From Actinomycetota bacterium (GTDB lineage Bacteria > Actinomycetota > Aquicultoria > SKW223): a DNA stretch of 46,691 bases. The stretch's first letter is position 1, and every line of letters starts with the position of its first letter. The translations under genes were made by a program, and so were the position numbers. Under the pieces are notes generated by a model. That model searched no databases, had not been told where the DNA came from, and was given only the letters and a program-made list of their open reading frames with translations. The stretch lies in the NCBI GenBank assembly GCA_026417515.1, contig JAOADC010000012.1:1-46691 (forward strand), given 5' to 3'. Shown piece after piece: positions 20,914 through 23,088 of this stretch.

Positions 20914-20935
20914 TAATTTTGGGTGGTGAATACAA

Positions 20936-21181
20936 ATGTCAGAAAAGCATTCAGTTACGATTTATACCTTGCCCACCTGACCTTATTGCCACAAAGCAAA
21001 GAGTTTCTTTGCTGAAAATGGAATTGATTTTCAGGAAAAAGATGTCTCAAACAATATGGATAACAGAAAAGAAATGCTTGAGTTATCCGGAGCTCTATCG
21101 GTTCCTGTAATTATTATCGATGACGAGGTCTTGATAGGTTGGAACGAGCCTCTTATCAGGAAGAAGTTGGGGGTGGAGTAA
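20936..21181 (+). CDS. predicted selenocysteine-containing glutaredoxin (in-frame UGA = Sec15)
   Basis: From ATG 20936 (SD GGTGGTGA) to TAA 21179-21181 one frame encodes 81 residues, interrupted only by TGA at 20978-20980, codon 15. Around it the protein reads VTIYTLPT-U-PYCHKAKSFF and later LSVPVIIIDDEVLIGW. This is the glutaredoxin fold, with the UGA exactly at the first cysteine of the CPYC redox motif, so the active site becomes U-P-Y-C. The cis-proline is in SVPV. A SECIS-like hairpin follows the UGA at the right distance. UGA is used as a normal stop in many neighbours, so a changed genetic code is unlikely. The gene abuts an AhpF-like reductase (next ATG at 21182), its likely electron donor. 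Selenoprotein glutaredoxins are known in some anaerobes. A Cys-to-stop mutation or sequencing error is the alternative. The selA, selB, selC and selD genes are not in this window. Confidence 0.85.
20986..21023 (+). promoter_or_regulatory. predicted bacterial SECIS element
   Basis: Immediately downstream of the in-frame UGA, AGCAAAG (20995-21001) pairs perfectly with CTTTGCT (21007-21013), closing the five-base loop AGTTT. A lower helix is possible (CCA 20989-20991 with TGG 21019-21021, plus two U-A pairs around a bulged G) across an internal loop. The apical loop begins 21 bases after the UGA and has G as its second base. Both features fit the known bacterial SECIS model: a loop 16-37 nt from UGA with G in its first two positions. 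It lies within the coding sequence. Confidence 0.75.
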
Positions 21182-22099
21182 ATGAAAGATCTGGTGATTT
21201 TGGGTGCAGGTCCTGCAGGTCTTACAGCATCTATCTACGCTGCCAGAAAAATGCTTGATTTTTTGGTTCTTACTAAGGACATAGGTGGACAAGCTATGTG
21301 GAGCGTGAAGGTTGAAAATTACCTGGGTTACACTCCAATAACAGGCCTTGAACTGGTAAATAAATTCGAAGAGCATGTAAAAGAGTTTGGTATTGAAATT
21401 GTTTACAGTCCAGCGCAGAAAGTCGAGCCAATTCCGGATGAAAGAATATTTCTGGTGCATACTGAAGATGGTAAGACGATTGAGACAAAGTCCGTTATAG
21501 TGGCAACTGGAAAGTCACCTCGTTATCTTAATGTGCCTGGGGAAAAAGAACATATTGGTAGAGGGATTGCTTTTTGTGCCACATGCGATGCTCCATTGTT
21601 TGCTGGACAAAATGTTGCTGTTGTTGGTGGCGGTAACGCGGCTCTTGATGCGGCTATGCAACTTACCGATATAGCAAAACAAGTCTATGTGGTTTCAATT
21701 GAGGACTGGACAGGGGACCCTGTAACTCAGAAGAAGCTCGAATCGAAAAACAATCTGACCGCTCTTAAATACTATGAAACACTTGAAGTTATTGGTGACG
21801 GTATGGTTAAAGGATTGGTTGTAAGAGATAGAAAAACAGGTGAAGAAAAAAGGCTTGATGTGACAGGCGTATTTGTTGAGATTGGAAGTGTTCCTAATTC
21901 TTATGTAGTGGAAGGAGTTTGTGAATTAAACAACCAGAAAGAAATTGTTATCAATTGCTACACTGAAACTTCCTACCCTGGTATATTTGCTGCAGGAGAC
22001 GTAAGCAGCATTCCTGACAAGCAAATTATTATCGCTGCAGGAGAAGGTGCAAAAGCTGCGCTAAGAGCCTACGAATACCTCTTGAGGCGGCCTGATTAG
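21182..22099 (+). CDS. trxB: AhpF-like thioredoxin/glutaredoxin reductase
   Basis: A 305-residue FAD disulfide reductase: FAD loop GAGPAGLTASIYAARK near the N-terminus, GGQAMWSVKVENYLGY, redox CATC around residues 138-141, dinucleotide loop VVGGGNAALDAA, and FAD motif GIFAAGDVSSIPDKQIIIAAGEGAKAA (cited by position, last 50 residues). The HRRxxxR motif that binds the NADPH 2'-phosphate in E. coli TrxB is replaced by SIEDWTGD. This region and the KQIIIA-GEGAKA segment resemble the C-terminal half of AhpF, an NADH enzyme, so NADH preference is inferred. The selenocysteine glutaredoxin ends directly before its ATG and may act as its partner, like a split AhpF. Related clostridial pairs (Cp9/Cp34) are known. 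Confidence 0.9.
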   Translation: MKDLVILGAGPAGLTASIYAARKMLDFLVLTKDIGGQAMWSVKVENYLGYTPITGLELVNKFEEHVKEFGIEIVYSPAQKVEPIPDERIFLVHTEDGKTIETKSVIVATGKSPRYLNVPGEKEHIGRGIAFCATCDAPLFAGQNVAVVGGGNAALDAAMQLTDIAKQVYVVSIEDWTGDPVTQKKLESKNNLTALKYYETLEVIGDGMVKGLVVRDRKTGEEKRLDVTGVFVEIGSVPNSYVVEGVCELNNQKEIVINCYTETSYPGIFAAGDVSSIPDKQIIIAAGEGAKAALRAYEYLLRRPD

Positions 22100-22104
22100 A
22101 ATAT

Positions 22105-23088
22105 ATGTCACTTGAATTTGGCCTTGAGGAAGAAGTATTTATCGTTGAAAGAAACAAGCCTGCACTAGACTCTCTTTATCCGCTTTATTCGCTTGTAAAG
22201 AACAATCCAAATTTTTACTACTTACATACTGCTGTAAACCTTGCTAGAGGTAAGGATATTCTAGATTTCTTTGTTGCATCAGTAGAAATCTCAACAGGCA
22301 TAGCAAGAACTCCTGAAGCAGCAATTGAACAGCTCAGGCTTATAAGGAAGGAGTTTGTAAAGGAATGCCCTCAAAAAGTAGCCTGCTTGGGTATGCTTCC
22401 TAACTATACCGAACATACAAGTCTTGTTTCAGGCTTTCACGTCCATATAAGTGGAGATTTCGATTTTAAAAAGGCAAGAATTGCTCTTGCGCACTATCTA
22501 CCAGCACTCTTACTTATAACTGCCAATTCACCTTCATTGGGAAATGATTATTTTTCCAATAGAATCCTCCAAAATCCTTTTTCGAAAGCAATAGTCGTTG
22601 ATAGTTACGCAAGATTTCAGGACATAATAATCAGTCGGAGGCTCAATACTCTTGAGATTCGTATTTTTGATCCATGTGTTGACCTTGATAGGTATCTTAT
22701 ACTACTTGAATTGATTGAAAAAATCATTCTATCAAATGAAAATGTAGAATTTGACTTCAGAAACTATGCTGAACTAAGGAAGGAATCAGCAATGCGTGGC
22801 ATTTCTTCAAAAAAGGTTGAAGCAATCGTTGATGAGATTTGTAGCAAATATGATGTTGATAAATATATTTTTACATATCCACCTGCGATACATACGAAGA
22901 AAATTTTCCTTGATTTAGGTGAAGAGCAGGCATATGCAAAATTGGATGCGCTTTACAGACAGGGCATTGAATATCAGGGCTCAAGATTGCCAAAAACACT
23001 TCGGGCGCTCCTTGGCTTTTTTGGCTACTATATACCAAAAATACCATTTTCAACCTACAAGTTTCTTAAGGAGCATGGATATATATGA
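22105..23088 (+). CDS. GCS2-family carboxylate-amine ligase
   Basis: A 327-residue protein of the glutamate-cysteine ligase type 2 (YbdK-like) family. It begins LEFGLEEEVFIVE (the metal/ATP-binding GxExE segment) and has STGIARTPEAAIEQL, the GFHVHIS motif, ITANSPSLGND and NTLEIRIFDPCVDL. It is shorter than the usual roughly 370 residues. Family members ligate glutamate to an amine, or are weak gamma-glutamylcysteine ligases; the substrate cannot be told here. It starts five bases after the reductase and overlaps psd by four bases, so it belongs to the redox operon. A role in making a low-molecular-weight thiol is a possibility, not shown. Confidence 0.8.
   Translation: MSLEFGLEEEVFIVERNKPALDSLYPLYSLVKNNPNFYYLHTAVNLARGKDILDFFVASVEISTGIARTPEAAIEQLRLIRKEFVKECPQKVACLGMLPNYTEHTSLVSGFHVHISGDFDFKKARIALAHYLPALLLITANSPSLGNDYFSNRILQNPFSKAIVVDSYARFQDIIISRRLNTLEIRIFDPCVDLDRYLILLELIEKIILSNENVEFDFRNYAELRKESAMRGISSKKVEAIVDEICSKYDVDKYIFTYPPAIHTKKIFLDLGEEQAYAKLDALYRQGIEYQGSRLPKTLRALLGFFGYYIPKIPFSTYKFLKEHGYI

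Follow-up and report, generated by a model that had tools for sequence, protein, structure and literature searches.

A predicted selenocysteine redoxin of the Uxx-star/YruB glutaredoxin type and its probable flavoprotein reductase in an Actinomycetota bacterium

Selenocysteine (Sec)-containing glutaredoxins have been reported from the Sargasso Sea survey (PMC1088965) and have also been listed in bacterial genomes (PMC1794560). The glutaredoxin of Clostridium (Alkaliphilus) oremlandii, Grx1 (PDB 7c10 and 7c12), occurs naturally as a selenoprotein, its active site reading U(or C)PXC; recycling by glutathione has been described for it, and it has been proposed as the reductant of Sec-MsrA (PMC7642778). 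A related arrangement is the Cp34-Cp9-Cp20 system of C. pasteurianum, in which the gene for Cp9, a small CP[YW]C-type redoxin, lies between those for an NADH-dependent thioredoxin reductase (TrxR; Cp34) and a peroxiredoxin, and Cp9 shuttles electrons between both proteins (PMC3720550). The locus described here, contained in a 46,691-nucleotide stretch of DNA from an Actinomycetota bacterium (the window), belongs to a known type, since selenocysteine glutaredoxins have already been reported, as the earlier note on this DNA had recognized; to this type it adds a conserved AhpF/Cp34-like partner.

The redoxin gene occupies positions 20936-21181 of the forward strand and was delimited by translation with TGA read as U, profile matches and alignment. 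Its frame comprises 81 codons (20936-21178) with a single TGA (20978-20980) at residue 15, is closed by a TAA stop at 21179-21181, and translates as MSEKHSVTIYTLPTUPYCHKAKSFFAENGIDFQEKDVSNNMDNRKEMLELSGALSVPVIIIDDEVLIGWNEPLIRKKLGVE. The TGA takes the first catalytic Cys position of the CPYC motif, giving UPYC at residues 15-18. Upstream of the ATG at 20936, a good Shine-Dalgarno-like sequence at 20922-20929 was read directly in the context GGTGGTGA-ATACAA-ATG. The frame, single TGA, stop and Shine-Dalgarno sequence put forward in the earlier note are thus all present, and its coordinates proved exact.

The Pfam Glutaredoxin family (PF00462) matches residues 7-65 (2.5e-20; 72.9 bits vs a gathering cutoff of 22.9) with the C/UxxC motif present, and the match spans the TGA, in agreement with the homology claimed for both sides of this codon. 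In NCBIfam, the model for the Uxx-star family glutaredoxin-like (seleno)protein (NF041212) is matched at 73.1 bits, above its curated cutoff of 66, and nothing sets the window redoxin outside this family. The best-scoring NCBIfam model is that of the YruB family (YruB/Cp9; TIGR02196), with 77.0 bits, below its curated cutoff of 88.55. Scores with the YruB and Uxx-star models exceed that with Grx3, and the best PDB match is the C. oremlandii glutaredoxin 7c10 (6.9e-16). The predicted product is a Sec-containing redoxin of the glutaredoxin type represented by Uxx-star and YruB (Cp9); the name glutaredoxin holds for the family match (PF00462, Uxx-star), whereas glutathione dependence should not be assumed for a protein of the YruB/Cp9/Uxx-star type.

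The genome (1.25 Mb in 69 contigs, listed as 100% complete) encodes the full Sec machinery. The tRNA-Sec gene (selC) is located at G000:C39:10827-10915 (79.3 bits vs a cutoff of 47), with selB (405 bits) immediately 5' of it and selA (620 bits) 5' of selB; nearby is selD (353 bits), which is of the selenocysteine type and carries an in-frame TGA of its own. All four genes, whose absence would have spoken against a Sec reading, thus occur in one cluster. The region G000:C39:7488-12965 (L023) presents a compact selA-selB-selC arrangement followed by an opposite-strand LysR-type gene and then by selD with its Sec codon. A family-by-family search of the genome for other TGA-containing selenoprotein genes returned three in addition to the redoxin, encoding SelD, a PrxU-type peroxiredoxin and a thioredoxin-like lipoprotein with a UPTC motif. 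The last of these, a putative lipoprotein gene at G000:C35:19085-19348 (L151:1909-2358), has its in-frame TGA within UPTC and a strong hairpin after it.

A few bacterial lineages read TGA as a sense codon, and a genome-wide change of this kind, with TGA encoding for example Trp, was considered. However, TGA terminates two of the 14 window genes checked as well as selA, which indicates Sec recoding instead of an altered code, and the corresponding column in relatives contains Cys and never Trp. On both grounds the TGA-as-Trp code was rejected, and its probability is negligible.

Conservation of the codon was assessed by a homologue search of 60 genomes, including that of the window, at E 0.001 or better, in which 35 genomes contained a redoxin homologue. 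Nine relatives carry TGA in the identical alignment column, within UPYC, UAYC, UAFC or UPHC motifs, and all other aligned homologues have Cys (TGC or TGT), so that the column of residue 15 is Cys or TGA throughout, as expected from the alignment with Cys glutaredoxins envisaged in the initial interpretation. Among the nine Sec relatives, a filtered search detected tRNA-Sec above the cutoff in seven, and an eighth (G052) has selB above the cutoff at a contig end. In the ninth (G002), neither tRNA-Sec nor an intact selB was found; as this assembly is fragmented into about 160 pieces and contains a weak selB-like fragment, it was not counted as a contradiction.

These data also bear on whether an ordinary CPYC glutaredoxin gene might have acquired the TGA through inactivation by mutation or through an erroneous base call. 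Cys forms are common in relatives and TGC and TGT are one base away from TGA; nevertheless, nine relatives share the TGA column, the remaining frame is intact as far as the TAA with its conserved residues kept, and the genome possesses the entire Sec machinery together with three other TGA-containing selenoprotein genes. The pseudogene or error reading was rejected on the basis of the shared column and is considered very improbable. With high confidence, we infer instead that SelB and tRNA-Sec recode the TGA at 20978-20980 as selenocysteine. Standard gene callers overlook or shorten genes of this kind, and the Sec reading recovers a real redox enzyme from them: an apparently stop-broken small redox gene very probably gives rise to a working glutaredoxin through Sec.

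A candidate bacterial SECIS hairpin at 20989-21021 of the forward strand, 22 nt after the TGA, was evaluated by a strict scan, folding and null models. It has an 8-bp upper stem and an apical GUU loop, with -9.5 kcal/mol for the element and -10.8 kcal/mol for a 51-nt fold (z -1.95), and conforms with modest specificity to all four published bacterial SECIS criteria (PMC13188914). Random TGA sites in the window passed the strict scan in 42 of 800 cases and equalled the candidate in 20 of 800, while synonymous recodings of the same peptide passed in 106 of 1000 cases and equalled it in 32 (about 3%). The scan was passed by four of the nine Sec relatives and failed by five. Since the coding sequence for Lys-x-Phe-Leu by itself favours such a hairpin, the candidate is regarded as supportive only. 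The SECIS-type element sought downstream of the TGA is therefore present in form, and its limited specificity makes it modest evidence, weak on its own, for a functional SECIS.

Immediately after the TAA of the redoxin gene, a reductase gene begins at 21182 and extends in the same direction to 22099 on the forward strand. Profile and PDB matches, a motif check and the neighbourhood characterize its product as an AhpF/Cp34-like flavin disulfide reductase of the TrxR family with a CATC pair. Its best PDB matches are to the TrxR-like domain of AhpF (237 bits), wherein lies its likeness to that protein; its score with the NADPH thioredoxin reductase model TIGR01292 (299.1 bits) is below the cutoff of 343.45, and it also falls under the AhpF equivalog cutoff. 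In AhpF the redoxin domain is fused at the N-terminus; the window locus instead encodes its redoxin as a protein of its own, and its reductase misses the cutoff of the AhpF model. The HRR-type NADPH motif is absent from the 21182-22099 reductase and present in a separate canonical TrxB encoded at C63:14150-15049, directly 5' of a thioredoxin gene. Given this TrxB, ordinary thioredoxin can do without the window reductase.

A reductase of the same type lies directly 3' of the redoxin gene in eight of the nine Sec relatives. The adjacency to a probable reductase noted at the outset is thereby corroborated, with the refinement that the enzyme is AhpF/Cp34-like and lacks HRR instead of being a canonical NADPH TrxB. 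Taken together, these observations make it likely that the flavoprotein is the partner of the redoxin, and the adjoining flavin enzyme probably recharges the selenoglutaredoxin. The locus thus represents a well-supported selenoglutaredoxin whose partner reductase can be named. Because the HRR motif is missing and the protein resembles AhpF, NADH is most likely its electron source.

A different route for the same selenoprotein would be glutathione-dependent reduction, with the flavoprotein serving another redoxin or using, for example, ferredoxin. The Pfam family of the redoxin is Glutaredoxin, its C. oremlandii relative has been described as glutathione-recycled (PMC7642778), and the next gene after that of the reductase weakly resembles YbdK/GCS2-type ligases. 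On the other hand, a genome-wide profile search for GshA confined to PF04262, a family distinct from GCS2 (PF04107), found no glutamate-cysteine ligase of that family; the redoxin fits the YruB and Uxx-star models better than Grx3; and the redoxin-reductase pairing is conserved. In contrast to the C. oremlandii protein, the window redoxin is encoded directly beside a flavoprotein reductase. Glutathione dependence of the window redoxin is doubtful, and the alternative route as a whole appears unlikely compared with reduction by the adjacent flavoprotein.

The ligase-like gene itself, at window positions 22105-23088 right after the reductase, reaches only 43 bits, where the cutoff is 176, as a YbdK/GCS2-like carboxylate-amine ligase and may encode a small-thiol enzyme. 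Neither this GCS2-like gene nor the downstream Psd gene was found beside the redoxin-reductase pair in relatives.

The gene, the position of its TGA, the Sec machinery and the conserved pairing of redoxin and reductase are established by the sequence, whereas the actual insertion of Sec, the electron donor, the reduction step and the targets are inferred. Most likely, the AhpF/Cp34-like flavoprotein would accept electrons from NADH, pass them along FAD and its CATC pair, and use them to reduce the Sec-Cys bond within UPYC, after which the reduced selenol would pass electrons to protein targets, plausibly the PrxU-type Sec-peroxiredoxin. The sole AhpC-TSA family match of the genome is this Sec peroxiredoxin, with a TFVU motif (C45:28024-28422; L152:1309-1911, minus strand), which matches the PrxU model NF040737 at 398 bits and is encoded on a different contig from the redoxin. 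As the two genes are unlinked, PrxU is proposed as a target only tentatively. A selenium-to-selenium peroxide relay, from the NADH flavoprotein via the UPYC redoxin to the only AhpC-family peroxiredoxin, itself a Sec protein, is likewise tentative; if true, it would make both carrier and peroxidase selenium-dependent in a 1.25-Mb genome. The window pair may be taken as a selenium form of the C. pasteurianum Cp34-Cp9 pair, with which it shares a small redoxin beside a TrxR-like enzyme. Cp9, however, is a Cys protein with an adjacent peroxiredoxin gene, whereas the window redoxin contains Sec and the sole AhpC-family peroxiredoxin is located on another contig.

Cys versions of the redoxin occupy the same genomic place in other relatives, some of them within the single family f6, which by itself has both forms (Sec in L044, L045, L046 and L051; Cys in L036, L039, L041, L043 and L047). 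Cys-form redoxins occur in genomes with tRNA-Sec and in genomes without it. The presence of Sec in some related genomes and of Cys in others at this position offers a useful natural comparison of what selenium contributes. An additional contig scan with a Cys-pattern alignment returned Cys homologues and was used for neighbourhood comparison only. In a phylum-level relative, two Cys glutaredoxin-like genes stand in tandem (L034:1501-1722 and 1757-1963).
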